64,000 bases of DNA from Terrimicrobiaceae bacterium. Its GTDB lineage: Bacteria; Verrucomicrobiota; Verrucomicrobiia; Chthoniobacterales; Terrimicrobiaceae. The translations under genes and the position numbers were made by a program. Shown here in pieces: positions 22,872 through 60,403 of the stretch; position 1 is the first letter of the stretch; the number at the start of each line of letters is the position of its first letter. The notes below the pieces were generated by a model. The model was not told where the DNA came from, did no database searches, and saw only the letters and a program-made list of their open reading frames with translations. Location of the stretch: the NCBI GenBank assembly GCA_018402345.1, contig JAGYIV010000008.1, positions 868,001-932,000 of the forward strand, in the 5' to 3' direction.

Positions 22872-23516
22872 ATGAAACCACACTCCACCCTGGGAACATG
22901 CCTTGCGGCCTGCCTCGCGCTCGCCGCAGTCTCCGCTATTGTGCGGGCCGAGGACACGGCCGCCTACAAAATCCAGAAGATCGAGGCCGCCCTGATCGAC
23001 AGCCCTGACATCACTGTCGGCAACTATCGCAAGCAGACGAAATCGAAAGCTAAGTGGCTCGAGGTCGATCTCTCTTTCGAGCGTGCCGACCGGAACGACA
23101 AGTCGTTTTCAGGCGACGTCGTGGTCAACTACTACATCCTGCTGAACAACGCGGCGGTGCAGCCCGACGGCAAACCCACGCTCCTCACCGGCTCGATCAA
23201 GCACTCCGATATTCCCGTCGGGAAGCAGTTGCACGCGGCGGCATTCGTCAGTCCGCAGGCTCTCCAGAAATTGTTCGGCGGCAAAATTCCCTCCACCATC
23301 TCCCAGGCGATCATCGACCTCGGCGCAACCATCACGGCAAACAGCACTCTGGCCGCGATCTTTACACTCAAAGGTAGTGTGGCAGGGGACAAAGGGTGGT
23401 GGGAAACCCAAGCCGACAAGATGACCACCACAACCGGTCTTGTTCTCGAAAAGGAGAACACCCCGTTTGCCCCCCTCTCTTGGGACTACTATCTGCCAGC
23501 CACCGTCTCGCCCTAA
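22872..23516 (+). CDS. Secreted protein of the pilus-like locus (Amuc_1102-like)
   Basis: A 214-residue protein with a signal peptide (about residues 1-26, cleavage after IVRA). The mature part looks beta-rich, begins with YKIQKIEAALIDSPDITVGNYRKQ and has no cysteine pair or known catalytic motif. Position directly ahead of a PilM-like gene, and overall appearance, match Amuc_1102 at the edge of the Akkermansia Amuc_1098-1102 locus. The homology is judged by eye. A periplasmic or surface structural role in the pilus-like apparatus is inferred. A 20-nt gap separates it from the pilM-like start. Confidence 0.6.
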   Translation: MKPHSTLGTCLAACLALAAVSAIVRAEDTAAYKIQKIEAALIDSPDITVGNYRKQTKSKAKWLEVDLSFERADRNDKSFSGDVVVNYYILLNNAAVQPDGKPTLLTGSIKHSDIPVGKQLHAAAFVSPQALQKLFGGKIPSTISQAIIDLGATITANSTLAAIFTLKGSVAGDKGWWETQADKMTTTTGLVLEKENTPFAPLSWDYYLPATVSP

Positions 23517-23536
23517 CCATTCGCCCCCGCCCGATC

Positions 23537-25285
23537 ATGGCCAAACCGGCAACCATCCTCACACTCAACCTCGGCATGCAAACCGTCAGCATGGCCGAGT
23601 TCGAGGTGCTGCCAGGTGACGGCCTTCGCCTCACCCGATTTCGAGAGGCGGAAATGATTCTCGATCCCGCGGCGGATGCCACCCGCCCGGATCAATTGAA
23701 GGCGTTGATCAAAGAACTCCGCGACGCGATTTCGCCGAAATCCAAGAAACCCATCTACGCCTGCCTTCCGTCCCAGTCGGTGTTTTCACGCTTTGTGCAG
23801 CTTCCCGGCGATTCCGCAGAGGATGTCGAGTCCATCATTCCCTTCGAAGCGCAGCAAAATGTCCCCTACCCCATCGACGAGGTCGTTTGGGACCACCAAC
23901 TCATGGGGCAAAAGCACGGCGACACATGGGACGTCGGCCTGGTGGCGATCAAGGCTGACCAACTCGATGATCTGGTCGCCGCCATCAAGCAAGGTGGCCT
24001 GCAAGTCGCCGCGATGGATCTTGCTCCCATGGCGCTCTACAACGCGCTGCGCTACAACCTGCCCGACCTGCCCGGCTGCACGCTCGTCATCGATCTCGGC
24101 GCGCGATCCACAAATCTCGTCTTCTCCGAAGGCGACCGCGTCTTTTGCCGCAGCATCCCGATCGCCGGCCACACCATCAGCGCTGCGATCGCCAAGGAAT
24201 TCGATCAAGACCTCGTGCTCGCCGAGAAGCTCAAAATCGAAAAAGGCCAAGTCGGCCTCGGTGGCGCCTATGCGGAACCGGCGGATCCCACCGAGGCGCG
24301 CATCGCCAAGGTCGTCCGCAACACAATGACGCGCCTGCACTCGGAGATTTCCCGCTCGATCAACTTTTACCGAACCAACCACAACGGTAGCGCCCCCGAC
24401 CGTATCCTCCTCGCCGGCGGCAACGCCAAACTGACCTACGCTACAGATTTTTTTGCCGAAAAGCTCACTGCCCCGGTGGATTTCTTCAACCCCCTTCAAA
24501 ATATCGAAGTCCAACCCGGCGCGCTCCCCGAGGGCACCGTGGCCTGCGCCTCAGGCATCGGCGAGCTTGTGGGGCTTGCCCTGCGCTCCCTCAAAAATTG
24601 CCCCGTCGAACTCAACCTGACCCCCCCCTCCGTGGTCAAAGCCATGGATTTCCGCCGGCGCATCCCGGCCTTCGCATTGGCCGCGCTTCTTCTCATCCTC
24701 ACGCCCGCGCTCTGGTTCGGCTATTTCACAGCCAAGGAAAAATCCATCCGCGCCCGAACCAGCGCCCTCGTCTCTGAAAAAGATCCGCTCGAGCAAACCG
24801 CCAAAGAGATTCGCGAAGGCTTGGAAAAACAAAAAATCCTCGCCGCCGCCGCCGAACCGTTCCTCACCTCCGTTGCCGAGCGCACCATCTGGCCGAACCT
24901 CATCGAGGAACTCGCGGCAAAAATGCCGTCGCGTCACATTTGGATCACCAAACTCACCCCTGTCGAAGGCGTCCTCGCTGAACCCGAACCTCCAAAAGAC
25001 CCAAAACAACCGCCCGCCCCGCGCGCTCCCAAACCCAACCAACCCACCGGAAAACCCGCCATCGTCGCCCTCCAAGTCGATGGCCTCTATTTGGACAACC
25101 CGCCGAATCCCAAAGCCGCCGGCATCGTGGACGAATTCGTCACCCGCCTCGACGAGTCACCGTTCTTCAACACCTCCGGAGATCGCACAAAGATCATCAC
25201 CCAGCGCACCACCCCGACCGGTGAGACCTGGGCCTATGGTTACACCTTGGTCTTGCCACTGAAAACCCCCGTGCCGCTTCCATGA
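23537..25285 (+). CDS. pilM: PilM-like actin-fold ATPase fused to a PilN-like membrane domain
   Basis: A 582-residue protein. The N-terminal 360 residues form an FtsA/PilM-type actin-like fold: LNLGMQTVSM (phosphate 1), IPFEAQQNVPYPIDEVVWD, VIDLGARSTNLVF (phosphate 2) and LLAGGNAKL (adenosine motif). Around residues 375-393 a transmembrane helix (FALAALLLILTPALWFGYF) is followed by a coiled coil and a ferredoxin-like periplasmic domain, as in PilN. In type IV pili PilM is cytoplasmic and binds the PilN tail; here both sit in one chain. The ATG at 23537 is chosen by family N-terminus. It corresponds to Amuc_1101 by position. Its stop overlaps the next start by 4 nt. Confidence 0.85.
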   Translation: MAKPATILTLNLGMQTVSMAEFEVLPGDGLRLTRFREAEMILDPAADATRPDQLKALIKELRDAISPKSKKPIYACLPSQSVFSRFVQLPGDSAEDVESIIPFEAQQNVPYPIDEVVWDHQLMGQKHGDTWDVGLVAIKADQLDDLVAAIKQGGLQVAAMDLAPMALYNALRYNLPDLPGCTLVIDLGARSTNLVFSEGDRVFCRSIPIAGHTISAAIAKEFDQDLVLAEKLKIEKGQVGLGGAYAEPADPTEARIAKVVRNTMTRLHSEISRSINFYRTNHNGSAPDRILLAGGNAKLTYATDFFAEKLTAPVDFFNPLQNIEVQPGALPEGTVACASGIGELVGLALRSLKNCPVELNLTPPSVVKAMDFRRRIPAFALAALLLILTPALWFGYFTAKEKSIRARTSALVSEKDPLEQTAKEIREGLEKQKILAAAAEPFLTSVAERTIWPNLIEELAAKMPSRHIWITKLTPVEGVLAEPEPPKDPKQPPAPRAPKPNQPTGKPAIVALQVDGLYLDNPPNPKAAGIVDEFVTRLDESPFFNTSGDRTKIITQRTTPTGETWAYGYTLVLPLKTPVPLP

Positions 25286-26232
25286 ACTGGTTCAAAGCCA
25301 ACCCGATTCCCGCCGCCATCGCGGTTGCCGTGATCGCCGCCACAGCCGCACTGGCTTATCTGGCGACCGGGGCAGCCCAGGCGACCGCCGAGGCCACGGC
25401 CGCCCTCGACAACGAAGCCCGCCAACTCGAGGCCCTAAAAAAACAAAAACCCTACCCGAGCAAGGCAAACAGGGATAAAATCATGGCCGATGCCGAAGCC
25501 TATGAAACGGCGCTCGCAAAACTCAAAACCGACCTGGCCGACCTCGACGAACCCTCCTCGTCCACCACACCCCAAGGCTTCCAAGACGCCCTCCGCAAGG
25601 CAGTCGACGCGATTTCCTCGGAAGCCATCAAGAAAACCATCGCCCTTCCCGAAGCATTCTATTTGGGCTTTGACGAGTTTCGGACACGCCTGCCCTCCAA
25701 GGAGGAGGCCATCACCCTCGACCGCGAATTTAACGTCATCAAAACCCTTGTCTCCCAACTCGTTGATCTCCCCGTGGAGAGAATCGATACACTAACAAGG
25801 CTTCCCCAACCCCCTCTTGCCCAAGGCGCCACCTCTCCGATTTCAAAAACGCGGTTCACGATTTCCTTCACTTCCGGACAGAAAGAACTCATCCAAGCGT
25901 TCAATCTCGTATCGCGCTCGGACCGCTTCCTCGTCATCCGCTCGGTGACATTTGAAAACTCCAACTCCGCCCCGCCTCCAAAAGTCGCGGCGGAAGGCAC
26001 CCCCGCCTCCCCGGCATCACCCATGCGCCCAAGACGGGCCATGCGCCAAGCAGCTGCCCGGGAAGCAAGTCCCGCCGGGCTTCCATTCGCAGGATCGACC
26101 CAACCCGACGAGGAGGACAGCTACCTCGATGTTGTCTTCGGAGACGAAGCCGTCACTGCCACGCTCCTCATCGAGATTCCGACATTTCCCGAACCCGCCA
26201 CGGAACAATCGCCTCCCCCGCCCAAGCCATGA
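25282..26232 (+). CDS. PilO-like membrane protein (Amuc_1100-like)
   Basis: A 316-residue protein with an N-terminal transmembrane helix (about residues 10-30, PAAIAVAVIAATAALAYLA), a long coiled coil (residues 35-90) and two ferredoxin-like periplasmic segments. A Pro/Ala-rich linker (about 230-275) separates the last strand region. This is the architecture of PilO and of Amuc_1100, the Akkermansia pilus-locus protein known for host TLR2 signalling. Whether this homologue is surface-exposed is unknown. It is joined by ATGA overlaps on both sides. The assignment rests on architecture and gene order. Confidence 0.7.
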   Translation: MNWFKANPIPAAIAVAVIAATAALAYLATGAAQATAEATAALDNEARQLEALKKQKPYPSKANRDKIMADAEAYETALAKLKTDLADLDEPSSSTTPQGFQDALRKAVDAISSEAIKKTIALPEAFYLGFDEFRTRLPSKEEAITLDREFNVIKTLVSQLVDLPVERIDTLTRLPQPPLAQGATSPISKTRFTISFTSGQKELIQAFNLVSRSDRFLVIRSVTFENSNSAPPPKVAAEGTPASPASPMRPRRAMRQAAAREASPAGLPFAGSTQPDEEDSYLDVVFGDEAVTATLLIEIPTFPEPATEQSPPPPKP

Positions 26233-27203
26233 TGGATTGGATTAAAAAACACTACGACCTCGCCATCCTCGCCGCAGTGACCCTCGTGCTGGTCGCCAAT
26301 GCCGCACTCATCTTTGCGACCGCCCAATCGGAGGATGCCACTCTTGCGATCCCCTCCGCCGCCGCCGCCGAAGACGCCCTTCCGGATTTCCAATCGACCA
26401 CCCTCGAAACCGCCAAAGCCGCCGCTGAAAATCCCACCGTCTGGCAATTCACCGACAGCGACCCCAACCGCGCCTCGCTGCTCGTTTCCCGCACCTACCT
26501 CCTGAAGGACGGAAAACTCTTCGACCCCATCGAAGGCGGTGAAAACCTCCACGATCCCATCCCCAACGCTTGGCTCATCGAACACGGCCTCGACTACACC
26601 GCCAAGGACATCAAAGACCGTGATTCCGACGGCGATGGGTTTACCAACCTTGAGGAGTTTCTCGAGGGCACAAACCCGAAGGATTCAGCCTCAAAGCCCG
26701 CCGGTTACAGCAAACTCAAACTCGTCGATTTCAAATCCATCCCCTTCCGCATCGTCTTCAAAGGCGACCCTTCCGGCACTGGCGCCGAGTTCCAGTTGAA
26801 CTTTCTCGAACTCAAGGGTGCCGCCCGCACCCAATACAAAAAACTCAACGATCCTATCGAAGGCGCTCCGTATAAAATCGCCTCCTACAAGGAAAACAAA
26901 TTCACCGATGACCGCGGCATTCCCGTCGACCGCTCGGAATTGACCCTCGAAAACACCGAAAACGGCAATTCCATCGTTCTCGTGAAGGACAAACAAACCG
27001 ACGATCCCGGTTCCGAAGGCACCTTCTTCAACCAAATCACCAAGGAAACGTTCGACCAAAAAAAGGGAGGCACCTTTGTGCTCCAGCCTGACCAGATCGA
27101 ATTCAAAATCATTGACATCACCCCCGACTCCGCCCAGATACAGGACACCACTACAGGGCAGACGTATCGGATTTCCAAAGCCGAGAACAGCAACCCCCAA
27201 TGA
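26229..27203 (+). CDS. Pilus-locus membrane protein with calcium-loop-like motif (Amuc_1099-like)
   Basis: A 324-residue protein with one N-terminal transmembrane helix (residues 10-32) and a periplasmic body. Residues 130-150 read DRDSDGDGFTNLEEFLEGTN, a thrombospondin type 3 or EF-hand-like calcium-binding loop (DxDxDGDG with a downstream Glu). The rest is beta-rich, with LVDFKSIPFRIVFKGDPSG and repeated polar strands. By position it matches Amuc_1099 in the Akkermansia locus; a PilP-like role between the inner-membrane PilN/PilO complex and the secretin is plausible but not shown. Starts and stops overlap neighbours by 4 nt. Confidence 0.65.
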   Translation: MMDWIKKHYDLAILAAVTLVLVANAALIFATAQSEDATLAIPSAAAAEDALPDFQSTTLETAKAAAENPTVWQFTDSDPNRASLLVSRTYLLKDGKLFDPIEGGENLHDPIPNAWLIEHGLDYTAKDIKDRDSDGDGFTNLEEFLEGTNPKDSASKPAGYSKLKLVDFKSIPFRIVFKGDPSGTGAEFQLNFLELKGAARTQYKKLNDPIEGAPYKIASYKENKFTDDRGIPVDRSELTLENTENGNSIVLVKDKQTDDPGSEGTFFNQITKETFDQKKGGTFVLQPDQIEFKIIDITPDSAQIQDTTTGQTYRISKAENSNPQ

Positions 27204-29710
27204 GACTTTTTTCACGCACTCCCGTTATTGCGTCGGCGTTCTTCGCTTTGTTCAGCTCAGCTCCCTTCGCGACCGCCCAATACCCCGGCGTCCAAGGCGC
27301 TGTCGAACGCCAAATCCAGGAACTCGAACAGAAAAAAACCTACGCTGCAGGTCTCGTGCAAAAGGGCGATCTCGCCATGTCTGGCCAGGATTACGAATCC
27401 GCCTTCGCCTTTTACAAAAGCGCCGTCGATACCCTGCCCCTCGGCGGCACAGCCTCGGAGGATGTCCGCCAGCAGGCGCTGAACGGATTTTGCAGAGCCG
27501 CTTTCGACCTCGCCCGCCAGCGTGTCTCCGAGGGCCGTTACGAGGACGCCCGCACCACCGTCGAGGTCATCCTCGAGGAACGCTACAACCCCGACTACGC
27601 CCCAGCCCTTTCCCTCCGATCCCAGCTTCTCGACCCGACAGGCTTCATGGACCGCGGCACGCTCACTCCTGAACATGTCGCCAAGATCGAGGAGGTGAAG
27701 CGCCTCATTCAGGAAGCCAAAGGGTTCGAAGCCTCCGGCCGCTATGACCTCGCCTTCCGCCGCTGCGAACAGGCCCTCAACCTCGACAAATACAACATCG
27801 CCGCCCGGCGTCTGATGGAGCAGATCAACAACGCCCGCGCGAACTACGCCAAGGCAGCCTACAACGAGTCCCGCTCAGCCATGCTCACCGAGGTCTCCAA
27901 AGCTTGGGAACTCCCCGTCACCAAGTTCACCGAGGGCCCCACCTCGATGATCGAACAACCCGCGATCACCGCCCGCGCCACCGAAGGCATCCAAGAAAAA
28001 CTCGACCGCATCATCATTCCCTCCATCGAATTCAACGACGCCTCCCTCCGCGTCGCCCTCGACAACCTCCGCCGCCGCGCTGCCGAACTCGACACCTCCG
28101 AGCCCGACCCCGCAAAAAGAGGCATCAATATTCTCGTCAAAAAATCACCGGACGAACCCGATTACCCTATCACGTTCGATGCCACGGAACTCCCTCTCCG
28201 CGCCGTTCTGGAATACATCGCCAGTTCCGCCGGCATGAAAATCAAGGTCGATCCCCACGCCGTGGTGTTCGTGCCGATGAGTGAGAACACCGATATTCTT
28301 CTCACCAAGGAATACAAAGTGCCCCCGAGCTTCATGCAAGGGGCCGCGTCGAATGCCGCATCCGCCCCTTCCCTCGGAGCCGCCGCCTCTCAAGCCGCCA
28401 TCGAGGCACGTTCGTTCAATGCCAAGAACTTCCTCGAGTCCCAAGGCGTTACATTCCCCGATGGCGCCAGCGCGAACTACCTCCCCAGCTCCAGCAGACT
28501 CATCGTCAAAAACACCCTTCCAAACCTCGAGAGCGTGGACGCCCTCGTCGAGGCCTCGATCGCCGAGCGCCCGACCCAAGTCGAAATCGAAACCAAGTTC
28601 CTCGAAGTCACCCAAAACAACCTGAACGAACTCGGCTTCGACTGGCTCCTCGGCCAATTCGCGCTGGCCGGCGGCTCAGGCATCTACGGCGGCGGCGGCA
28701 CCGAGGGATTCGGCCGCACCATTTCCAACCCCTCCTACCCCCTCGTCAACCCTGCCACCGGTCTTCCCATCGGGGCATCCTCCGGCACATCAGGCCCGAT
28801 CACTGCCGGAAACCGCGGCGGGGCCGGCGGGAGATTCGGCACCGCAATCCAAGTCAATGCCGTGGATGCCTTGCTTTTGGGCGGTGCCGGGGTCTCGGGT
28901 GCCGCCCCGGGCATCCTCTCGGTCGCCGGCGTGTTCACCAACCCCCAATTCCAAGTCGTTCTCCGCGCCCTCAGCCAGAACAAAGGCGTCGATCTCGTCA
29001 GCGCCCCAAAAGTCACCACCAAAAGCGGCATGAACGCGAAAATCGAAATCGTTCGCGAGTTCATTTATCCCACTCAATTTGATCCGCCCCAACTCTCGGC
29101 GAACCAAGGAACCACCTATTCGCCGGTTGTTCCCAATACCCCTTCCTCATGGGAAACAAAAAACACCGGCATCACGTTGGAAGTCGTCCCCACCGTGGGC
29201 CCGGATCTTTACACCATTGATCTTCAACTTGTTCCGCGTGTCATTGAGTTCGATGGCTTCATCAACTACGGAAGCCCGGTTTTTGCCACCGTTGAATACA
29301 ACTCGCCCCTTGATCTCCTCCCCCGCCCCTCGTTCACCTTTGAAGCCACTCCTAATACCATCAACCAACCCGTCTTTTCCACGCGCGAGGTCGAGACCAC
29401 TGTCTCTGTCTACGACGGGGAGACGGTTGTCATGGGCGGCCTCATGCGTGAAGACGTCCAAAAAGTTCAAGACAAAGTCCCGATCCTCGGCGACATCCCC
29501 CTGGCTGGTCGCCTCTTTCGCTCCAATGTCGACCAGCACGTCAAGCGCAACCTGATCATGTTCGTGACCGCAAGCCTCATGGATCCCGCCGGCCAACCCA
29601 TCATTCAGGCATTGGATGATGACGATGTTCTGGCACCCGAACCCGATATTCCCGCCATGTTGGGTGAAACCCTTCCAGACGATCCGGATTCCATCGCCCT
29701 CCCGCAATGA
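27200..29710 (+). CDS. Secretin with N-terminal TPR-like region (Amuc_1098-like), copy A
   Basis: An 836-residue outer-membrane channel subunit of the PulD/PilQ superfamily. A signal peptide (residues 1-26) precedes a helical TPR-like region (about 40-230) with GRYEDARTTVEVILEERYNPDYAPA and ASGRYDLAFRRCEQALNLDKYN. N-domain modules follow, including LPSSSRLIVKNTLPNLESVDALVEA. The secretin core begins near VTTKSGMNAKIEIVRE (residue 605) and ends with YDGETVVMGGLMRED and VPILGDIPLAGRLFRS, the canonical C-terminal secretin signature. N-terminal TPRs are characteristic of the Akkermansia-type secretin and could replace a separate pilotin such as PilF. It is followed by a paralogue with a 4-nt overlap. 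Confidence 0.88.
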   Translation: MRLFSRTPVIASAFFALFSSAPFATAQYPGVQGAVERQIQELEQKKTYAAGLVQKGDLAMSGQDYESAFAFYKSAVDTLPLGGTASEDVRQQALNGFCRAAFDLARQRVSEGRYEDARTTVEVILEERYNPDYAPALSLRSQLLDPTGFMDRGTLTPEHVAKIEEVKRLIQEAKGFEASGRYDLAFRRCEQALNLDKYNIAARRLMEQINNARANYAKAAYNESRSAMLTEVSKAWELPVTKFTEGPTSMIEQPAITARATEGIQEKLDRIIIPSIEFNDASLRVALDNLRRRAAELDTSEPDPAKRGINILVKKSPDEPDYPITFDATELPLRAVLEYIASSAGMKIKVDPHAVVFVPMSENTDILLTKEYKVPPSFMQGAASNAASAPSLGAAASQAAIEARSFNAKNFLESQGVTFPDGASANYLPSSSRLIVKNTLPNLESVDALVEASIAERPTQVEIETKFLEVTQNNLNELGFDWLLGQFALAGGSGIYGGGGTEGFGRTISNPSYPLVNPATGLPIGASSGTSGPITAGNRGGAGGRFGTAIQVNAVDALLLGGAGVSGAAPGILSVAGVFTNPQFQVVLRALSQNKGVDLVSAPKVTTKSGMNAKIEIVREFIYPTQFDPPQLSANQGTTYSPVVPNTPSSWETKNTGITLEVVPTVGPDLYTIDLQLVPRVIEFDGFINYGSPVFATVEYNSPLDLLPRPSFTFEATPNTINQPVFSTREVETTVSVYDGETVVMGGLMREDVQKVQDKVPILGDIPLAGRLFRSNVDQHVKRNLIMFVTASLMDPAGQPIIQALDDDDVLAPEPDIPAMLGETLPDDPDSIALPQ

Positions 29711-32298
29711 TCACCCCGCATTTCCTTTCCAAATGGTCCCTCAGGCCGAACGCTCCGGTTTTCTTGCTCTGTGGAGCTGCTTTATTTGCTGCTGTTTCGC
29801 CTCTCCCGATCGCAGCTCAATCCGCCCCATCGGTCATCACCACCTCGGAAAACGAGATCGCACGGCGTCAGGCCCGCGTGACTAACGCCGAAGCGCTCCT
29901 TGAAAAATCCCGCCGCGCCGCCGCAGATAAAAACCCGGAGGCCGCCTACTCGCTTGCGCTCCAAGCCGTTGATCTGTTGCCCGGCGGTCTGCCCAACGAC
30001 CCGAACCGCGCGTCGACCATCTCGGCGTTTTCGCAAACGGCGATGGACTACGCCAACTGGCTCATCTCCCAAGGGCGTTACCAGGATGCCGAGCGCGTGG
30101 CCAAAACCATCCTCTCCCCGGCGATCAATCCGAACTTCAAACCGGCCGCCCGCTTGTTGGCGAACCTCGAACAAACAGACTACTACAATAAAACAATCGA
30201 CCCCGCCTTCGCAGCAGAGCGCGAGGATGTCCAGAAATTGCTCAACCAAGCCGAGGGCTACGCCGCCACCGGCCGCTATGACCTAGCCACAAAACGCTAC
30301 GAACAGGTCCTGAATCTCGACCGTTACAACACCGCGGCCCGCAATGGCATGGAAGCCGTCAACAAGCAGCGCACCACCTACTACGACCAAGCCTACAACG
30401 AAACCCGTAGCCGCATGCTCTGGGAGGTCGAGCAAGCCTGGGAACGCCCGGTTCCCAAACGCAACACCTCCACCCGCTCCACCGCCTCATCGACATTCCA
30501 AGCCGCCAATGAGTCCAAGGCCCTCATTACCAAAAAACTGAATGACATCGTCATCAAAGAAATCAATTTTCCCGAAATCACCATCCGGGAATTCGTCGAT
30601 TTCCTCAAAAACCAGAGCCGCCAACTTGATCCCAACAAGCAAGGGGTAAATATCGTGCTCAAACTCTCCCCACAGCCGACAGGTGGCGAGGACGAGTCCA
30701 CGGATGACGAAGATTCCACCGACTCACAAGCCACCCCATCGACTAAAATCTCCATTTCCCCGCCCATTAATAATATCCCCCTCGGCGAAGCGATTCGTTA
30801 CCTTACCGAGTTGACGGATTTAAAATACAAAATCGATCCCTTCGCCGTTGAGATTCTCTCCCCCACCGCATCGACCGAGGACCTCGTCACCAAGGAATAC
30901 CGCGTCTCCCCTGGGTTCATTCCCGTCACACCGTCCGACGACACGGCATTGCCTACGGCAGGCGGCCGCTCATCCAGCGGCGAAACCCGCCTTCTCGACC
31001 GCCGCGATGCCAAGAGGTTTTTGGAGGAACAAGGCGTGCCGTTCACCAGTGGCGAGGCGTTCGCCCGCTACATCCCCTCCGGGAGCCGCCTCATCGTTAG
31101 AAACACCCAATCCGCCATCGATACCATCGACACCATCATCGAGGGCGAAATGGGCGTGCCACCCAATCAAGTCGAGATCGAGTCCAAATTCATCGAAATT
31201 TCCCAAAACAACCTCAACGAACTCGGCTTCGATTGGCTTCTCGGCCCGTTCTCCATCGGCGGTGGCGTGTATGGCGATGGGGGAACCATCGGATTGGGAC
31301 AGGAAACTTCTGGAGACTACTACAGCAACTACCCGTTTAGCCAGGTCGGTGGAAACCCTGTCACTGCCGGAACCCGCTCAGGCATCGGAACCAGCTTGAA
31401 CTCGGCGATCACTGCAAACAGCATCGACGCCTTGATCGCCCAAGTCCCCCAAGGCTTCAACGTGGCCACTCCGGGCATTTTCGGCATCGCCGGCGTGTTC
31501 ACCAACCCGCAGTTTCAGATGGTCATCCGTGCTCTCAATCAGAAAAAAGGCATTGACCTCATGTCCGCTCCCAAAGTCACCACCAAGAGCGGGAGTAAGG
31601 CCACCGTCAAAATCGTGCGCGATTTCCCATACCCTCAGAACTTTGATCCACCAGAGGTTCCAGAGTCTTCATCGTCAAACTCCACATCGACAACCGCTGG
31701 AATTGTTGTGACCTCAAGCATCGTCACGCCGGCAAATCCAACCGACTTCACCAACCGCGAACTTGGCGTCACGTTGGAAGTCGAACCCGTCGTCGGTGCG
31801 GATAACTATACCATCGACCTCTACCTCTCCCCTCGCGTGGTGGAGTTCGACGGCTTTGTAAACTATGGTTCGCCGGTCATCGGGCCACGATTCAACCCGG
31901 CGTCAATTCTTACAGGAAACCCCTCTGGCATTGAAACCTATGTCATCACCCCAAACACGATGGACCAACCCATCTTTTCCGTCCGATCAGTCGACACAAA
32001 TGTCACCGTCTGGGATGGTCAGACCGTGGCCCTCGGCGGCCTCATCCGCGAAGACGTGCAAAAGGTTCAAGACAAGGTGCCTCTTCTGGGCGATATCCCG
32101 CTCGCTGGACGCCTCTTCCGATCAAACGTCGACCAGACCATTAAGAAAAACCTCATCATCTTCGTCACCGCCCGCTTGATCAACGCCCAAGGCCAGCCAT
32201 TGATCCAACAGGACGACGAAGAGGATTTTGTCGAACCGCTCGGCCTGCCCGAAGACCTCCCTCAGCCCACGTTTCAAACCCAAAAATTCGGCAAGTAG
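29707..32298 (+). CDS. Secretin with N-terminal TPR-like region, copy B (paralogue of the preceding gene)
   Basis: An 863-residue secretin with the same layout as copy A: signal peptide (about residues 1-37), TPR-like region containing YEQVLNLDRYNTAARNGMEAV, N-domains and a secretin core. Exact shared segments include QNNLNELGFDWLLG and GDIPLAGRLFRSNVDQ. Copy B has an acidic insert (GGEDESTDDEDSTDSQA, about residues 326-342) and a Ser/Thr-rich loop near residue 660 (SSSSNSTSTTAGI) that copy A lacks. It is the last gene of the operon; a convergent hydrolase gene ends 48 nt downstream. Homo- or hetero-oligomer formation with copy A is unknown. Confidence 0.86.
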   Translation: MITPHFLSKWSLRPNAPVFLLCGAALFAAVSPLPIAAQSAPSVITTSENEIARRQARVTNAEALLEKSRRAAADKNPEAAYSLALQAVDLLPGGLPNDPNRASTISAFSQTAMDYANWLISQGRYQDAERVAKTILSPAINPNFKPAARLLANLEQTDYYNKTIDPAFAAEREDVQKLLNQAEGYAATGRYDLATKRYEQVLNLDRYNTAARNGMEAVNKQRTTYYDQAYNETRSRMLWEVEQAWERPVPKRNTSTRSTASSTFQAANESKALITKKLNDIVIKEINFPEITIREFVDFLKNQSRQLDPNKQGVNIVLKLSPQPTGGEDESTDDEDSTDSQATPSTKISISPPINNIPLGEAIRYLTELTDLKYKIDPFAVEILSPTASTEDLVTKEYRVSPGFIPVTPSDDTALPTAGGRSSSGETRLLDRRDAKRFLEEQGVPFTSGEAFARYIPSGSRLIVRNTQSAIDTIDTIIEGEMGVPPNQVEIESKFIEISQNNLNELGFDWLLGPFSIGGGVYGDGGTIGLGQETSGDYYSNYPFSQVGGNPVTAGTRSGIGTSLNSAITANSIDALIAQVPQGFNVATPGIFGIAGVFTNPQFQMVIRALNQKKGIDLMSAPKVTTKSGSKATVKIVRDFPYPQNFDPPEVPESSSSNSTSTTAGIVVTSSIVTPANPTDFTNRELGVTLEVEPVVGADNYTIDLYLSPRVVEFDGFVNYGSPVIGPRFNPASILTGNPSGIETYVITPNTMDQPIFSVRSVDTNVTVWDGQTVALGGLIREDVQKVQDKVPLLGDIPLAGRLFRSNVDQTIKKNLIIFVTARLINAQGQPLIQQDDEEDFVEPLGLPEDLPQPTFQTQKFGK

Positions 32299-50817: not shown

Positions 50818-52046
50818 TCAGCGGGCCTTGAGCGAACTCACACTGGTGAGGATGCCTGGCGATCATCGAATAGGCGACGATGCCGACGAAGAACGCGACG
50901 AGGAGGATGATTGCGGGCTGGACGAGTGTCGTGAGATGGCCGATGCGCGAGGTGAGGTCGCGGTCGTAGCGCTTGGCGGCACGCTCGAGCGAGGTGGCGA
51001 TGTCGCCGGTCTGTTCGCCGATGGCGAGGATGTCGAGCATGACGGGGGAAAAACCCCACCCGCCGGAACGCGCTCGCCAGCGACGTGCCCTCGCCCACCA
51101 TCGCGGCGGCCCGGACGAGGAGCGCCTTCAAATACACATTTGCCGTGGCGTTGGTCATGAGTTGCAGCGCCTGGAGAAGTGCGACGCCGTTCGACACGAG
51201 CGTGGACAGTGTTTGCAGCATCTCGGCGAAAAACTTGGCCTGGAGAACAGGGCCGACCACAGGGAGGCCGAGCATCGTGCGGTGCCACCAGTCGCGGCCC
51301 GCCGGAGTCCTCACAGCGCCGCGCGCCGTGAGCGCCACCACGCCGATCAAGGCCACGATCGCCCACCACCAGGTGCCACAAAATTCGCTGACCGCGATCA
51401 AGACACGCGTGATCACAGGAAGTTGCTGGCCCGTTTTTCCAAGGAGCACCGACAATTGAGGCACCAAAAATGTGAGGAACACGAACATGAGGACGATCGC
51501 CGAGGCGAAGACGATGGCGGGATACAGGAGCGAGGATACCACGCGGCGGCGCAGGTCCTCGATGAGGGTCAGGTAGTCGCACTGGCGTTTCAGGATTTGC
51601 GGGAGCGCGCCGGAGGCCTCGCCCGCGGCGACCAGATTGCAATAGAGGGTGTCAAACGTGCGGCCGCAGGATTGCAACGCGGCGGAAAATCCCACGCCGT
51701 CGCGCACCTTCTGCCTCAAATGCGCGGCGATGACCGGCGTGCCCGATTTTTCCTGGCGTTGCTCGATCACTTTCAACGCCCCCTCGAGCTTCAGACCGGC
51801 CTCGAGCAACTCGGCCAATTCCTCGGTGAAGTGCAATAATTGGACATTCCCGAGTCTCGGCAGCGGATCTCCGGCGGAGGGTGCCTTCTTTCGATTTGCC
51901 CCCCCCGCGCCCGCCTCCGTGAGGCTCACCGGCCGCAGGCCGCGGTCAACCAACTGGCGAAACGCCTCCGCCCGCGTCCTGGCCTCGAGGCGGCCTTCCT
52001 CGCTCCGCCCGCTGGCATCTGCCGCCTTGTAGGAAAACTCAGGCAT
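50818..52046 (-). CDS. gspF: Type II secretion inner membrane platform protein GspF, two frameshifts
   Basis: Three-helix inner-membrane protein that couples the GspE ATPase to pseudopilus assembly. The N-terminus MPEFSYKAADASGRSEEG is typical; I use the ATG at 52046, preceded by GGGAAAAG, rather than 52073. Cytoplasmic domains (LLHFTEELAELLEAGLKLEGAL and LVAAGEASGALPQILKR) and the first two helices are intact. One extra base at the G5A5 tract 51044-51053 shifts the frame; the proper continuation is VMLDILAIGEQTGDIATSLER and the last helix LVQPAIILLVAFFVGIVAYS. A second extra base near 50858 hides the true end ILTSVSSLKAR (stop 50818-50820). Corrected length is about 408 residues. Confidence 0.9.
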
Positions 52047-52087
52047 CGCTTTTCCCGTGACCCTTGGCGGCATGATTGGCCGCCGCG

Positions 52088-53785
52088 CTATTCATCCAGC
52101 ACCTCCAGTTCGCTGCTGGTCACGCGCAGCACCTCCTCAACGGACGTCACGCCTTGGGCGACCCTATCCCAGCCGGCCTTTCGCAGGGGCGCCATGCCCT
52201 CGCGCATGGCAATCTCCCTCAACTCGGACCCCGATGCCCGGTGCTGGATCGCCTCCTGGAGGCGGTTGCTCATCATGCAAATCTCGAAAATCGCCGAGCG
52301 GCCCGCATAGCCTGTGTTCCGGCATTTCTCGCAGCCCGCCGGGCGCCGGATTTTTTCCGCCCACTCGACGGGATACCCGAAGCCCCGCAGGTCCTCGGCC
52401 TTGTATTCAGCCGGCTGCGCGCAGTGCGGGCACAATTTTCTGACCAGCCGCTGCGCGATGAAGGATCGCACGGCTGAGCCGACGAGAAACGGCTCGACGC
52501 CCATGTCCAGCAGACGCGTGATTCCGCCCACAGCGTCGTTTGTGTGCAGGGTGCTGAAGACAAGGTGGCCGGTCAGCGCGGCGCGAATGGCGATCTCCGT
52601 GGTTTCGAGGTCGCGCATTTCGCCGACCATGACGACATTCGGGTCGCCGCGCAGGATGCTCCGCAAGGCCGTGGCGAAATCGAGGTTGATCTCGGGTTTC
52701 ACCGCGATTTGGATGACGCCGTCGAGCTTGTGTTCGACGGGATCCTCGATCGTGACAATGCGGCGCTCCTTCACATTGAGGGCGCTCAGGAAGGTGTAGA
52801 GCGAGGTGCTCTTGCCGCAACCGGTGGGGCCGGTGACAAGAATAATGCCGTTCGGCGTGGAGATGAGATTGCGGATGGTGCGTTCGTTCAGCGGGTCGAG
52901 GCCGAGGCCCGAGAAATCGAAGCGCTGCTGTCCGAGCAGTCGGAGGCTCACGTTCTCACCGTGCACGCAGGGAATCGTGGCCACGCGCACATCGATCGGG
53001 CGCCCGGCGATCTCCAGCGCGATGCGCCCGTCCTGCGGACGCCGCCTCTCCGCGATATCCAGCCCCGACATGATCTTGAGCCGCGAGGTCAGGGAGTCCT
53101 GGAGGAGTTTGATGCGCTGGGGCACCGGCGTTTCATGGAGCACGCCGTCGATCCTGTAACGAATACGAAGGTCTTGGCCGAGCGGCTCGAAGTGGATGTC
53201 CGTCGCGCCTTGCTGCAAGCCCTCGCGCAGAATCTGGTTCACGAATTTCATGACCGAGGCCTCGGAGTCGTCCTCATCCACGATATTCACCTCCTCGCGC
53301 GCGGTCTCGGAGAGGTCTCCCTCGCGGTCCTCCAGCAACTCCTCGAAGGTGTCCGCTCCCACGCCGTAGGTCGTTTTGAGCCGCTCCAACAGGTGCCGCC
53401 GTGTGGTCATGCGCAGACGCACCGGGCCACGCCAAAACTGCGCGACCGCCTGCCATGCGGCGTGGTCGAAGGGGTCGAAGCCGAGGATTTCGAGGTCGCC
53501 GTTTTCAGGAAGCGACTCCGGCAGCACAAGGCAGCCCAGTGCCAACCTCGCCGGGAAGCGCTCCCGCGCGTTTTCAGGCACAACCACAGCGGCCTCCTCA
53601 CGCCAAGGCACGCGCAACTCCTCAGCGAGTGCTTTCAAAAACGCCGGTTCATCGACGATCTTGGCGTCGAGAATCGCGGCGACAGGCGATTTCTGGGCGA
53701 ATGCCGCCGCCTTCAGCACCGAGCGGCACTGCTCCGCATCGGCGCAGCCCGTGCGGGCCGCCAGTTCCAACAACATCTCAGTCAT
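52088..53785 (-). CDS. gspE: Type II secretion ATPase GspE
   Basis: Hexameric assembly ATPase of about 565 residues. The N-terminal domain is followed by LREGLQQGATDIHFEPLGQD and the core: Walker A LVTGPTGCGKSTSLYTF, Asp box IVTIEDPVEHKLDGVIQI, Walker B RGDPNVVMVGEMRD and the His box. The zinc module has two CxxC pairs, LCPHCAQPAEY and GCEKCRNTGYAGR. The ATG at 53785 overlaps the gspD stop by 8 nt. A later ATG at 53776 is possible. No substitution in catalytic residues is seen. Confidence 0.96.
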   Translation of the reverse strand: MTEMLLELAARTGCADAEQCRSVLKAAAFAQKSPVAAILDAKIVDEPAFLKALAEELRVPWREEAAVVVPENARERFPARLALGCLVLPESLPENGDLEILGFDPFDHAAWQAVAQFWRGPVRLRMTTRRHLLERLKTTYGVGADTFEELLEDREGDLSETAREEVNIVDEDDSEASVMKFVNQILREGLQQGATDIHFEPLGQDLRIRYRIDGVLHETPVPQRIKLLQDSLTSRLKIMSGLDIAERRRPQDGRIALEIAGRPIDVRVATIPCVHGENVSLRLLGQQRFDFSGLGLDPLNERTIRNLISTPNGIILVTGPTGCGKSTSLYTFLSALNVKERRIVTIEDPVEHKLDGVIQIAVKPEINLDFATALRSILRGDPNVVMVGEMRDLETTEIAIRAALTGHLVFSTLHTNDAVGGITRLLDMGVEPFLVGSAVRSFIAQRLVRKLCPHCAQPAEYKAEDLRGFGYPVEWAEKIRRPAGCEKCRNTGYAGRSAIFEICMMSNRLQEAIQHRASGSELREIAMREGMAPLRKAGWDRVAQGVTSVEEVLRVTSSELEVLDE

Positions 53786-56114
53786 ACTCGGGCTTGCTCC
53801 AAGGCCAGAAGGATTTCTTTTTCTTCTCGGGGCGGAAGACCGAGGGCGGGCCGGGTTGCTCGGCAAGCGGCGCGGTCATCGCCTGGCCATCCACACCGAG
53901 TGGCGTGCGATCGCCCTCGTAGGCGCTGGCCTTCAGCATATCCTCGTTCGAATCCACAACCACCGGCTGGATCATCACGATCAACTCGCGTTTTTCGATC
54001 TTGTCCTGAGTGCGCCCGCCGAGCAACGAGCCGACGATGGGAATCTCCGAGATGTAGGGGATGCCCTCTTTACCCTCATCCTTTTCCTCCGAAATCAACC
54101 CCCCGAGCACGATGGTGGTGCCATTTGGCACGCGCACGCTCGTGGTGATCTCCTGGGTGGCGATGACCGGCACTTGGTTCCCGGAAATGTTTTCCCTGCC
54201 CACGATGTTGTCGTTCGTCTGCGCGATGACCAGATTCACCTCGCCGTCGGAGTTGATCAATGGAACGACTTCAAGCTTCAACACGACGTCCTGGTATTGG
54301 ATGTTCGATGTAATCGAAGACCCGTTGCCGGTGATGCCGCCGCCGGTGGCCGTGGTAAGAGCTTGCGTGGGCACGGGCACCTTCTGGCCCGAGAGGATCG
54401 TCGCCTTGCGGTTGTTGGTGGTGTAAACCACAGGCCGCGATAATGTTTTAAACCGGTTGGTGGTTTCGAGGAACCTCGCAAAAATATCCACAGAGTCCGC
54501 GATGGTGCCGTAAACGGTCAATCCCGACAGGCCCGACAGGGTGGGGAGCGCTGATGGATCGGTGATATTCAGCGGGTTGTTCGGAAACACACCGCCGGGA
54601 AGCATGTTCGGGTTTATCGCCGTGGCAGCGAAGCCGCTTGTGGGCGAGTTTCCGAGGAGGTTGTTCAGCGGCTCAAACCCCTTGTTTCGGATAAAGTAGC
54701 TCACCCCGTAGTCCAGGCCCTTGCCAAGCCGCAGTTGGCCGATCACCACAGCCAGATAGACCTGCTTCGGGCGCTGGTCGAGGATGTCGAGAATCTGCTG
54801 TGTGCGCAGTTTGCTCTCGGGGGGACCGAAGACAACGATGCTGTTCGCGTTGCTGTCTGCGATGAGACGGATTTCGCCGATGGTGACGGCTTGCGGAGCT
54901 CCCTGCTCGGTTTCGTTGGCCAGCCGGTCAGGCCGGTCCAAGCCGGAACCGGCATCGGAATTGTTTCGACCGCGCTGGGTGTTGTTTCCAAAGCCTTGGT
55001 TTTGGTTGCGGCGCTGTTGTTGTGAATCGCCTTCAGCTCCGGAAACCTGCTTCTCGCTGTCTGGATCGCCGAGCATATCCGACAGGACCGGGAGGATATC
55101 CGTGACAGGAACGTATTTCAGCTTTCGCGTGAAGGGTTGCTCGAAATCGGCGGCGGCATCGAGGTTGGAAATGACCTCGCGCACGTAGCGGTAGTTCTCC
55201 ACACGCGTCACCACGAGCACGCGGTTCGTGCGCTTGTCGGCGAGGAATTTCGCCTGCCCGGTCACAAGGTTGTTTTCGTAGCGGGCATTGGAAATGCCGG
55301 CCGCCGCCTGCGCCGGAGGCGGGGCTTGGCCACCCCCTTCGGCGGGCTTCCCTTGGGCTTGATTCACGCTGGCACCCGACCCCTGCTTGCCCCCCTCGTT
55401 CTTGGTGAACATCGCATCGAGCATTTCCACGACCTTCTCGGCGTTCGCCCGCCTCAAGGTGACAAACTCGGTGACCACCCGCGCGGGCTCGACATCGATG
55501 AGCTTCAACACAGCCAGCGCCTTTTCAATCAAGGCGGTCTTGTCGGTGATGATCACCGCGTTGGTATTCGGCACAGGCACCAGCGACCCGTAGGCATTCA
55601 TCTGGATGACCCCTTGCAACACGGCAATCGCATCCTCGGGGGTCAAGAAGGCGAGCGGCTTGTAGAAACTCAACACTTGGTCGCTCTGCGGCAGTAGCGT
55701 CTCCTCGCTCAGGATCGGCACACCCTCCGTGCGCGGAGCGCGGCTGGGGCCGAGGATTTTCACGGTCTCGCCATCCACCGGCACCAGGCTGTAGTTGTTC
55801 AACAACAGCGAGCTTTCAATGATCGCGATCGCGTCCTCCCGCGACACCGGCTTGGAAATCATGATCGAGAGTTCCTGCCCGGCGAGGTTCGAGTCGCGAA
55901 TGATGCGCTTGCCGGTGAGGACCTCGTAGAACGCGATCACATCCAAGACCGAGTTTTTCGGGAAGGTGATGGTGACATTGTCGCTCTCGACGGGCTTGGC
56001 GGGCGGCTTGAGCCTCGGGGTGACGGGAACGCCCGGCGGCACCGCCGGCGGTTGCTGGGCCGGAGCGGAGGTTGCAATCAGCAAAAGGAAAAGCAGTGGT
56101 GTGTATCGCATCAT
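53778..56114 (-). CDS. gspD: Type II secretion outer membrane secretin GspD
   Basis: A 778-residue secretin. A signal peptide (about residues 1-19) precedes N0 (NVTITFPKNSVLDVIAFYEVLTGKRI), N1-N3 domains (VIITDKTALIEKALAVLKLID, FVTLRRANAEKVVEMLDAMF) and the secretin core, closing with VRVPNGTTIVLGGLISEEKDEG and GIPYISEIPIVGSLLGGRT. The N3 loop is enlarged with Gln/Asn-rich sequence (QQQRRNQNQGFGNNTQRG). Unlike the two secretins at 27-32 kb, it has no N-terminal TPRs, so it is a separate T2SS-type subfamily. It is coupled to the preceding gene by a 4-nt overlap. Confidence 0.95.
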   Translation of the reverse strand: MMRYTPLLFLLLIATSAPAQQPPAVPPGVPVTPRLKPPAKPVESDNVTITFPKNSVLDVIAFYEVLTGKRIIRDSNLAGQELSIMISKPVSREDAIAIIESSLLLNNYSLVPVDGETVKILGPSRAPRTEGVPILSEETLLPQSDQVLSFYKPLAFLTPEDAIAVLQGVIQMNAYGSLVPVPNTNAVIITDKTALIEKALAVLKLIDVEPARVVTEFVTLRRANAEKVVEMLDAMFTKNEGGKQGSGASVNQAQGKPAEGGGQAPPPAQAAAGISNARYENNLVTGQAKFLADKRTNRVLVVTRVENYRYVREVISNLDAAADFEQPFTRKLKYVPVTDILPVLSDMLGDPDSEKQVSGAEGDSQQQRRNQNQGFGNNTQRGRNNSDAGSGLDRPDRLANETEQGAPQAVTIGEIRLIADSNANSIVVFGPPESKLRTQQILDILDQRPKQVYLAVVIGQLRLGKGLDYGVSYFIRNKGFEPLNNLLGNSPTSGFAATAINPNMLPGGVFPNNPLNITDPSALPTLSGLSGLTVYGTIADSVDIFARFLETTNRFKTLSRPVVYTTNNRKATILSGQKVPVPTQALTTATGGGITGNGSSITSNIQYQDVVLKLEVVPLINSDGEVNLVIAQTNDNIVGRENISGNQVPVIATQEITTSVRVPNGTTIVLGGLISEEKDEGKEGIPYISEIPIVGSLLGGRTQDKIEKRELIVMIQPVVVDSNEDMLKASAYEGDRTPLGVDGQAMTAPLAEQPGPPSVFRPEKKKKSFWPWSKPEYD

Positions 56115-56683
56115 TGTCCAGGATTGTCGGGAGAGGGTTGGCCGGAGATCACACGGCGGCGGATCACGCGGCGCGGTTTTTCGTTGCCGGGTGCTCCCGG
56201 CGTGATTTTGGGATTGGGTTCGGCCCCAGCGTTAGCAGGGGGCACAGGGCCCTTGGATGGAGGCGGCGCGGGGGCCTGGGATAACTCGAACACTGTATCG
56301 GAAAAACGAATCTCGGCGGTTTGTCCGGCGATTTGAACCTTCGCGCGCATGTTTTTCGGATTCGGATCGCTGAAAAATTCCAGCAGGCTGTTTCCCGAAT
56401 TGTCATTTTCAGCGCGGAGCAAGAGCCGCTGTTGGGTGTTTTTGTCCCAGACAAAAACAACCTGCTCTCCGCCCATGGTTGCCGCACCCGCCAAGTGGAA
56501 CCTGTCCTCGGGAGCGGCCGTTTCCTCGGCAGTGGGCAATGAGAACGGCGACCTCCCGAGAAGAGATTGAAAATCAGCGAGTGCCCTCGGCTTTTCCCAC
56601 GCCTCCTGCGCCAAGGCGGAGCCGCCTCCGGCCGCCAAAAGCAGGCAAACAGCCAAAAAGCAGAGATGTCGTGGCGCGATCAC
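56111..56683 (-). CDS. Periplasmic T2SS-associated protein, possible GspC-like HR domain
   Basis: A 190-residue protein starting at a GTG (56683) that overlaps the gspM stop in a GTGA. It has a signal-like N-terminal helix (HLCFLAVCLLLAAGGGSALA), then ADFQSLLGRSPFSLPT and FHLAGAATMGGEQVVFVWDKNTQQ. The following strand-rich stretch is reminiscent of the GspC homology region that contacts the secretin N0 domain. A Pro-rich tail follows. Its position between gspM and gspD supports such a bridging role. No PDZ domain is present. The GspC link is inference. Confidence 0.5.
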   Translation of the reverse strand: MIAPRHLCFLAVCLLLAAGGGSALAQEAWEKPRALADFQSLLGRSPFSLPTAEETAAPEDRFHLAGAATMGGEQVVFVWDKNTQQRLLLRAENDNSGNSLLEFFSDPNPKNMRAKVQIAGQTAEIRFSDTVFELSQAPAPPPSKGPVPPANAGAEPNPKITPGAPGNEKPRRVIRRRVISGQPSPDNPGQ

Positions 56684-57208
56684 GGAGTGGTTTCCCTTTC
56701 GTTGTAGTGTTGCCGCACGACGATTTCGGCAATCACATTCGGCGGTTCCTTGTCGCTGCGGATCAAAATCCTGTCGATGGATTTCCAGGCTCCCGGGCTC
56801 TGCAGTCCGAAAAGAAACGTCGCAAACCCCGCGAAGGGCCCGCCCACCTTGGTTTGCAACACGGCGGCTTGGCCACCCTCCGCATGGCATCAAGGTCTCC
56901 TCGACAATCGTCAACCCGGCGGACTCGGCGGAACTCCGCACCTCGCCGAGCAGCCTGGTGTTCGCCTCGTCCGCTGAAACCACCGGGGGCGGATTCGCCG
57001 CGAGCCATTCGCTCCCGGAGCTGATCATCTCCGCAGCCGAAGAGAGGCTGGTGTATTCGGCCAGCTTCGCCTTGTCCGCCGCGAGGGAGCGCGCCGTGTC
57101 GCGCCGCTTGTCGAGCCAGAAACGCACAACAAACAGGTTCGACGCGACAAACACCGCCGCCAGAAACACCAATAGCAACCGCCTCTCGTTACTCGCCAGC
57201 TTCCGCAT
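56680..57208 (-). CDS. gspM: Type II secretion protein GspM-like, one frameshift
   Basis: A 175-residue inner-membrane protein of the T2SS platform. The N-terminus MRKLASNERRLLLVFLAAVF contains the single membrane helix, and a coiled coil (WLDKRRDTARSLAADKAKLAEY) follows. The frame breaks near 56880-56890; beyond it the correct sequence is GGQAAVLQTKVGGPFAGFATF to RSDKEPPNVIAEIVVRQHYN. This is the ferredoxin-like GspM/PilO-type periplasmic domain. It overlaps gspL by 20 nt and the following gene by 4 nt. Confidence 0.72.
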
Positions 57209-58397
57209 CGTATCTCGTGCCCTCCATTTCAAACCGCACCTTGTTGCGACCGGCCAGTTTCGGCTGGCGCGATGTCCAATCGTAATCCTGCAGGCGGGGG
57301 TCGTTTTGCACTTTTTGGAAAAACTCGTAGGACTCCGACACATCCGCCGCCTCGCCGGCGACGAAAAGTTTTCCCTTGTTGAATTCGTATTCCGTCAACC
57401 GCACCCGGTCTCCGGGGATTTGTGAAGCCACCGCGGCAAGCTGGTCGATCGCGAACAGCGTGGGATCGACGGCTGGACGGGCATTTCTCCAAGCGTCCAT
57501 GCGCTCCCGGGCCTCAAGCGCCGCCGGCTCGATTTCCAGCACTTCGGTGCGCAAGCCGTGTGCACGGACGACGCCAACCAGTAAATCCAAAGCCATGCCG
57601 ACCAGAAACACCGCATAGACGATCCCCCCGATCAATGCGACCCGCAACGTCTTCCGGCGCACCGCCCGTTGTTCCATTCGCCGGGCGGCGGCGGGTGAGC
57701 GGGGGTTCCCGCCAATCTCCGGAATCACAGGCGGCGGCAATGTCTCCTCACTCTTCCAATCGATGCGCAGCGCCTCGCCAAGAAGCCTCCCCTCGTCGTC
57801 GGAAAATCCTCCATAAAGCACAGCCCGCGCCGGCATCGCCGCAAGCACCTCCTCCCAGCGCAACCTCGCCGCCGTTCGTGCAAGCGCTTCACAAAGAGCC
57901 TCTGACAGAAAGGCTTCGCCGGTGTAGGTGAAATGAACGCACTCCTTGCCGCTGTAAAACCCGACGCACACCTGCGAAAACTCACGCCAAACAGCAAGCC
58001 CGGCGTCCGCCGGATGGAACAACCGCGCCGAACACTCAAACCCGCGTGCGTGTTGCAAGGCATCGGACGTTGCATCGTCATCCACCACACCCATGGCGAG
58101 CACCAGTCGGCGCCCTCCGTTTTCCTGCACCGTGACATGGTTCAGGCGCGCATTCCGCGCCAACAGATGGCGCGCGGACATTTCCAGTTCCACGATGTCC
58201 TCGAGATCGCCCTCGACACCCGCCCAGAGCGGCACCGCAAGAATGTCCTTGGCTGGAATCCCAAGCAGGAGGTTTTTAAAGCGGGAAAGATTCCCAACAT
58301 CCGCCTCACGAGACACGCCGCCGTGCTGGTCCACTGTCCACAGCTCCCAGTCATCGGGACCGGGTCTCAGAATGGCATCGACAGGCGCGTTTTTCAT
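57189..58397 (-). CDS. gspL: Type II secretion protein GspL-like
   Basis: A 402-residue protein. The cytoplasmic part (residues 1-250) has an actin-like fold similar to GspL/PilM. A transmembrane helix follows (about residues 258-282, VALIGGIVYAVFLVGMALDLL), then a PilN-like periplasmic domain (DRVRLTEYEFNKGKLFVAGEA). GspL binds the GspE N-domain and GspM. The start at 58397 overlaps the gspK stop by 4 nt, and a later start is unlikely because the actin-like N-terminus needs it. The family is divergent, so the name rests on position and architecture. Confidence 0.75.
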   Translation of the reverse strand: MKNAPVDAILRPGPDDWELWTVDQHGGVSREADVGNLSRFKNLLLGIPAKDILAVPLWAGVEGDLEDIVELEMSARHLLARNARLNHVTVQENGGRRLVLAMGVVDDDATSDALQHARGFECSARLFHPADAGLAVWREFSQVCVGFYSGKECVHFTYTGEAFLSEALCEALARTAARLRWEEVLAAMPARAVLYGGFSDDEGRLLGEALRIDWKSEETLPPPVIPEIGGNPRSPAAARRMEQRAVRRKTLRVALIGGIVYAVFLVGMALDLLVGVVRAHGLRTEVLEIEPAALEARERMDAWRNARPAVDPTLFAIDQLAAVASQIPGDRVRLTEYEFNKGKLFVAGEAADVSESYEFFQKVQNDPRLQDYDWTSRQPKLAGRNKVRFEMEGTRYDAEAGE

Positions 58398-60038: not shown

Positions 60039-60403
60039 GGCCTGAACACAAGCACCTCGGCCTCCTCCGTCGAATCCTCCCACTGCGCCTCGATCCTCAA
60101 CTTCCACATGCCGGGAATGGTCGCCCCGTTGGTGTCGGTCAACTCCGCGGGTTCGATTGTCTCGACCACACGGATTCCGCCGTTCGAGGCGGGATCGATC
60201 TCCCGCGTGCCTTCCTTCGGAGGATTCGCATAGGATACCGCAAGCTGGGATTCGATGACATGCCTCGCCGCCATGCGCTGGCGCGCGGCAAGCGCGCTGT
60301 CGACCACCGCCTGCAACGCCATCGCAAGCCCCGTGGCGGCAATCGCAAACACACCGAGCGCGATCAGCACCTCGAACAACGTAAATCCCCGCCTACCCCT
60401 CAT
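60035..60403 (-). CDS. gspI: Type II secretion minor pseudopilin GspI
   Basis: A 122-residue pseudopilin with a 6-residue leader and cleavage motif MRGRRG/FTLFEVLIALGVFAIA. RMAARHVIESQLAVSY is characteristic of GspI, and the domain ends WKLRIEAQWEDSTEEAEVL. Length and the very short leader match the family. It overlaps gspH by 11 nt. Confidence 0.9.
   Translation of the reverse strand: MRGRRGFTLFEVLIALGVFAIAATGLAMALQAVVDSALAARQRMAARHVIESQLAVSYANPPKEGTREIDPASNGGIRVVETIEPAELTDTNGATIPGMWKLRIEAQWEDSTEEAEVLVFRP

Follow-up and report, generated by a model that had tools for sequence, protein, structure and literature searches.

The six consecutive genes analysed here, which lie in a 64,000-nucleotide stretch of Chthoniobacterales DNA (the window), form an Akkermansia-type pilus operon in which the secretin gene is present as a tandem pair, and this pair was found to descend from a single old duplication and to be retained jointly across six families. 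The operon very probably encodes a PilMNOPQ-like complex in the envelope, part of the machinery for a verrucomicrobial type IV pilus. It is predicted to work with unlinked motors and with two co-expressed secretin paralogues. The locus, known as MUL2, is described in PMC13174399 as widespread in Verrucomicrobiota outside Akkermansia and as less conserved in Chthoniobacterales, and finding it here is therefore not new. As far as the literature searched shows, what is new is the conserved tandem secretin pair with its single origin and, in parallel, a second secretin in Akkermansia-type genomes. A pair that has arisen once and has been kept through a deep lineage, taken together with this parallel second secretin, points to a functional need for two channel proteins in these pilus machines. 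This raises the concrete question of whether the two form a mixed ring or two channels, in a system where Amuc_1100 and mucin uptake have received most of the attention.

Identity and organization of the operon

All six reading frames were observed to be intact on the plus strand between positions 22872 and 32298 (Table 1). Each of the Akkermansia genes Amuc_1098-1102 has an NCBIfam family of its own, and all six proteins were matched by these profiles. Gene 1 scored 101 bits against NF042424 (Amuc_1102_rel, cut-off 55) and matched the Amuc_1102 structure (PDB 7dsz) with E=8e-8 in a phmmer search. Gene 2 scored 596 bits against NF045709 (Amuc_1101_fam; E=8e-179, positions 1-607/608), which lies under the equivalog cut-off of 650, and 111 bits against the Pfam family PF11104 (PilM_2). 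Its assignment to PilM is supported by the profiles of both collections and that of a putative PilN fusion by the full-length Amuc_1101 match. Gene 3 was matched over its full length by NF038287 (Amuc_1100_fam) with 164 bits, slightly under the cut-off of 180, and a PDB sequence search paired it with Amuc_1100 (PDB 6lad, E=2e-12). Gene 4 scored 179 bits against NF042425 (Amuc_1099_fam, cut-off 50), and genes 5 and 6 scored 816 and 796 bits respectively against NF042912 (Amuc_1098_fam, cut-off 750), with PF00263 of Pfam matched by each of them.

The six genes are full-length homologues of Amuc_1102, 1101, 1100, 1099, 1098 and 1098 again, in that order. The gene order 1102-1101-1100-1099-1098 on one strand, which is present here, recurs in almost every locus that was inspected. 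The identity of the operon with the Akkermansia locus, which the original prediction had proposed, is fully supported by the profile, PDB (two genes) and synteny tests, and the PilO-like and Amuc_1099-like proteins both show profile similarity to the Akkermansia set, so that the refuting outcome named with the prediction did not occur. The count of six genes also stands, but only five types had been named and the sixth gene, the second tandem secretin, had passed unremarked.

The start of gene 2 was read from the sequence as the ATG at 23537, and the longer open reading frame from 23396 corresponds to an upstream start. Four successive 4-nt ATGA overlaps of stop and start codons chain genes 2-6, which are therefore almost certainly carried on one transcript with coupled translation. 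A promoter scan gave no sigma-70-type site in the region, where the sigma-70 model is uninformative for this phylum.

Table 1. Genes of the operon and type II secretion (T2SS) and pilin-type features elsewhere in the window
Feature	Position	Strand	Description
Gene 1	22872-23516	+	214 aa; secreted Amuc_1102-family (MUL2A) pilin-like protein, Sec-type signal
Gene 2	23537-25285	+	582 aa; Amuc_1101-family PilM with fused PilN-like C-terminal part
Gene 3	25282-26232	+	316 aa; Amuc_1100 family, PilO position, single N-terminal TM
Gene 4	26229-27203	+	324 aa; Amuc_1099 family, PilP position
Gene 5 (secretin A)	27200-29710	+	836 aa; Amuc_1098 family, N-terminal TPR
Gene 6 (secretin B)	29707-32298	+	863 aa; Amuc_1098 family, N-terminal TPR; tandem paralogue of gene 5
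T2SS cluster	50838-57400	-	gspF, gspE, gspD, with several pilin-type leaders upstream
gspF	50838-52073	-	T2SS
gspE	52088-53866	-	T2SS; third GspE-type ATPase of the genome
gspD	53778-56114	-	T2SS; only 42 bits to Amuc_1098_fam
Pilin-type leaders	about 59900-61250	-	

The predicted envelope complex

In the proposed complex, gene 2 would provide a PilM ring in the cytoplasm with PilN fused to it, gene 3 a PilO-like protein of the envelope-spanning part and gene 4 a linker in the PilP position. Genes 5 and 6 would supply the secretin of the outer membrane as two paralogues, each with a TPR (pilotin-like) domain of its own, and gene 1 would add a secreted pilin-like protein at the head of the operon. 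PilB and PilT, acting on a single PilC and like it encoded elsewhere, would extend and retract pili through the complex. We infer that these parts form one machine, which both secretins probably serve. Amuc_1098 has been identified as an outer-membrane secretin by immuno-EM (PMC4960237) and MUL2 is proposed as a pilus-biogenesis complex in PMC13174399. A pilus able to bind polymers and draw them in would be consistent both with an outer-membrane secretin and with the tie of the Akkermansia locus to mucin accumulation and uptake that is given in summary in PMC13174399.

Gene 4 has an N-terminal TM helix and two small C-terminal beta domains in a model of good confidence (AlphaFold2 mean pLDDT 84). 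This architecture fits a PilP-like linker, and gene 4 may play the PilP role. No PilP/GspC match to gene 4 was found in Pfam; with the model as query, none of the Foldseek matches of sensible coverage fell below 1e-3 and none from VIA-align reached a Z of 5, and PilP/GspC was absent from their lists. Residues at about 132-143 carry a DxDxDG calcium-type motif, and TSP3_bac (PF18884) was matched by gene 4 below threshold. Across the Amuc_1099 family the motif D-x-D-x-D-G-F-x-N-L-E-E was observed to be nearly invariant, which suggests calcium dependence.

The product of gene 3 is a member of the Amuc_1100 family, whose structures have led to its description as PilO-like. It was found to be the fastest-evolving protein in the operon, with 54% identity to its closest congener as compared with 71-82% for the remaining five. 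Among named contigs, the nearest come from metagenome genomes of uncultured Spartobacteria and Chthoniobacterales, some of which have sample names of the lake type, and the organism appears to be an environmental Chthoniobacterales lineage. Amuc_1100 activates TLR2 in cell assays (PMC5332112), and host signalling had been offered as a reason for interest in its homologues. Such a role for gene 3 is unsupported, since its product is less conserved than any other protein of the operon and the lineage appears to be environmental.

Motor, platform and pilin genes

The genome (3.14 Mb in 17 contigs) encodes PilB-type, PilT, PilC and prepilin peptidase proteins, all of them unlinked to the operon. 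Two tandem PilB/GspE-type ATPases, which do not adjoin T2SS genes, are located on contig C10 (L096) and scored 620 and 597 bits against TIGR02538, both below its equivalog cut-off of 675.65, and two PilT-family ATPases on contig C8 scored 439 and 425 bits (cut-off 319). The single PilC is a protein of 425 aa with two PF00482 domains, encoded on contig C2 near 257 kb, at a distance of about 610 kb from the operon. A single prepilin peptidase (PF01478) was found on contig C10, and N_methyl matches gave 20 pilin-type leaders in the genome.

Both the sole other GspF-type protein of the genome and the third ATPase of the GspE type are encoded in the T2SS cluster of the window. The original statement that pilB, pilT, pilC and pilin genes are missing here holds for the operon itself, but elsewhere the window contains the GspE/GspF/GspD set and pilin-type leaders. 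The gspF gene is frameshifted near 51040, with the last about 60 residues in another frame, which either an error in the assembly or a genuine mutation might explain.

In a phylum-wide comparison of 145 genomes, 116 of the 137 that have PilT gave an Amuc_1101-type match (E<=1e-50), as against 2 of the 8 that lack it, and the Fisher p value of 5e-4 overstates this evidence because the genomes are related and the test is uncorrected for ancestry. The PilT-lacking genomes G169 and G188 still carry an Amuc_1101-type gene, and in two 0.9-Mb relatives (G022 and G031) the locus has been lost along with both PilB and PilT. The motor inventory of the genome, the association of PilM with PilT and this joint loss make a complex that borrows the unlinked PilB, PilT and PilC the best account, and the assignment of motors draws on inventory and not on linkage since the motor genes lie apart from the operon. 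An apparatus that works without a motor, which had also been considered, was rejected in view of the motor genes in the same genome.

Two further secretins were noticed. One of about 628 aa is retained in G031 (G031:C1:665557-666036) despite the loss of its pilus genes and possibly belongs to an injectisome. The other is an SctC-like secretin of injectisome type, found with a YscJ/FliF lipoprotein and an SctN-like ATPase at L200 5858-10729 (G000:C6, about 275.9-280.7 kb), where these genes adjoin open reading frames with hydrophobic translocator-like stretches.

Architecture and origin of the tandem secretins

Secretins A and B are 45% identical and each contains an N-terminal TPR region, ring-building domains and a complete secretin domain. 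The TPR regions gave weak Pfam matches and the N-terminus is helical in the structure model, which has a mean pLDDT of 67 and hence low confidence overall. The best Foldseek matches of gene 5 were BfpB and V. cholerae PilQ, with RcpA-TadD also listed, and from these matches the fused TPR may serve as a built-in pilotin.

Among the 57 genomes surveyed, the tandem pair was observed in six Chthoniobacterales families (f1, f2, f7, f9, f12 and f13), and the operon mostly has a single copy elsewhere. The set comprises 25 pairs from 24 Chthoniobacterales genomes of the six families; one genome (G007) has two partly cut pairs, of which one is nearly identical to that of G001 and may be contamination. 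In a tree of 72 secretins, every first-position copy (25/25) fell in clade A with an SH-aLRT support of 99 and every second-position copy (25/25) in clade B with a support of 100, and the two clades are sisters (96). As each clade gathers all copies of its position and the clades are sisters, the pair goes back to a single duplication with the conserved order A then B. The side-by-side arrangement of the two genes, unchanged across the whole lineage, is probably meaningful for pilus building. When traced on the tree of PilM, the tandem state requires only two changes, which fits one for the Chthoniobacterales clade and one for the distant genome G131. A second survey gave no complete locus in the clade that lacks A or B, and the few A-only loci stop at a contig end. 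Only five strongly divergent conserved positions separate A from B, and these are unclustered at any one functional site.

The pair in G131 (L094 5710-11565), which belongs to another lineage of the class, is an independent and very divergent tandem pair. In one Chthoniobacterales locus (L131 12679-21776) genes 1102 to 1099 are present with no secretin within the next 8 kb, which contains trpB and other genes instead.

A second Amuc_1098-family secretin, unlinked to the operon, was found in all five Akkermansia-type genomes tested (code f15, an assignment made from Amuc_1098 scores). It represents a separate duplication with long branches in the tree, in which row L206 was disregarded as being in the wrong frame. 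In G079, for example, the second secretin is located at L198 6899-9424, and this and the operon copy are the only secretins found in that genome, which has one PilC. Those who use Akkermansia mutants might ask whether the second secretin is masking phenotypes.

Separate channels or a mixed ring

We rank separate channels somewhat above a mixed ring. On the first reading, which we hold tentatively and at a little under even chances, A and B are separate homomeric channels that divide labour and are both docked on the same PilM-P complex; one would extrude the pilus and the other would have a second task such as secretion, glycan uptake or another pilus. Self-assembly is usually preferred by paralogues, and the C-terminal tails of the two copies differ while being conserved per copy, with identities of 0.32 among A, 0.48 among B and 0.12 between A and B. 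The B tail is acidic and ends in lysine, as in most single-copy secretins, and the A tail is distinct and conserved among A copies. Such copy-specific conservation suggests different partners, and the unlinked, long-branched second secretin of Akkermansia-type genomes also speaks for channels that are separate. However, A and B share a single PilM/N/O/P-type gene set and one PilC, and neither copy has been dispensed with in any genome of the clade. The two PilB genes do not provide a matching pair either: PilB pairs are also present in genomes with one secretin, G099 and G180 among them, and a matching of two secretins to two PilB motors was rejected as a general rule.

The co-assembly of A and B in one mixed (hetero-oligomeric) secretin ring is possible but less probable. 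The invariant tandem order, the ATGA translational coupling in the window, the single origin and the joint retention in six families all argue for it. Both copies are under strong and nearly equal purifying selection, with a dN/dS of about 0.04-0.06 where dS is measurable, and the identity between A and B peaks at 0.73 over the last conserved block, the barrel region, as against 0.21-0.35 at the N-terminus. Yet this identity was observed to be about as high between genomes as within them, whichever segment is compared, and therefore gives no sign of matched interfaces or of gene conversion between the copies. If true, a mixed ring would be a kind of outer-membrane channel for which no reported precedent was found in a limited literature search. 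That A and B are obligate partners of one such ring in a type IV pilus machine is, in our judgement, unlikely.

It is improbable that the locus is a dedicated glycan-uptake or attachment apparatus in which filaments have been given up, although the Akkermansia locus was named MUL2 and is tied to mucin accumulation in the summary given by PMC13174399. The genome contains PilB-type, PilT, PilC and prepilin peptidase genes as well as genes with pilin leaders, the locus tends to be missing where PilT is missing, and uptake might itself need pilus retraction. Redundant copies commonly arise by duplication, but the idea that one secretin is a decaying, functionless duplicate is very hard to credit and largely refuted by the long, open secretin frames of all 25 pairs, the strong purifying selection that both copies show wherever it was measured and the six-family depth of the pair.

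Comparison with known systems

The operon shares the gene families, order, strand and TPR-secretin architecture of the Akkermansia muciniphila locus, and the motors lie outside the locus in both. The differences are that two tandem secretins are present here in place of one, that the Amuc_1101 and Amuc_1100 homologues score slightly under the NCBI equivalog cut-offs, and that the operon comes from environmental Chthoniobacterales. The second secretin of Akkermansia-type genomes sits elsewhere in the genome.

The proteobacterial type IVa pilus operon has the order pilMNOPQ. The present operon follows M-N-O-P-Q by position, with a PilM profile match and a secretin of the PilQ/GspD type, and PilB-type, PilT and PilC genes are found in this genome as in type IVa systems. 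In contrast to the proteobacterial operon, PilM and PilN are fused here, the secretin is doubled and has its own TPR, and PilO and PilP are replaced by the Amuc_1100 and Amuc_1099 families, which have no Pfam similarity to either.

The T2SS GspD, GspE and GspF of the window (50.8-56.1 kb) belong to homologous secretin and ATPase superfamilies, but they are encoded in a separate operon on the opposite strand and their GspD is only a low-scoring match to the Amuc_1098 family (Table 1). The RcpA-TadD complex of the Tad pilus (PDB 8odn), which was among the Foldseek matches, also combines a TPR module with a secretin. There the TPR pilotin is a separate protein whereas here it is fused to the secretin, and the remaining machine here is of the PilM and not of the Tad type.
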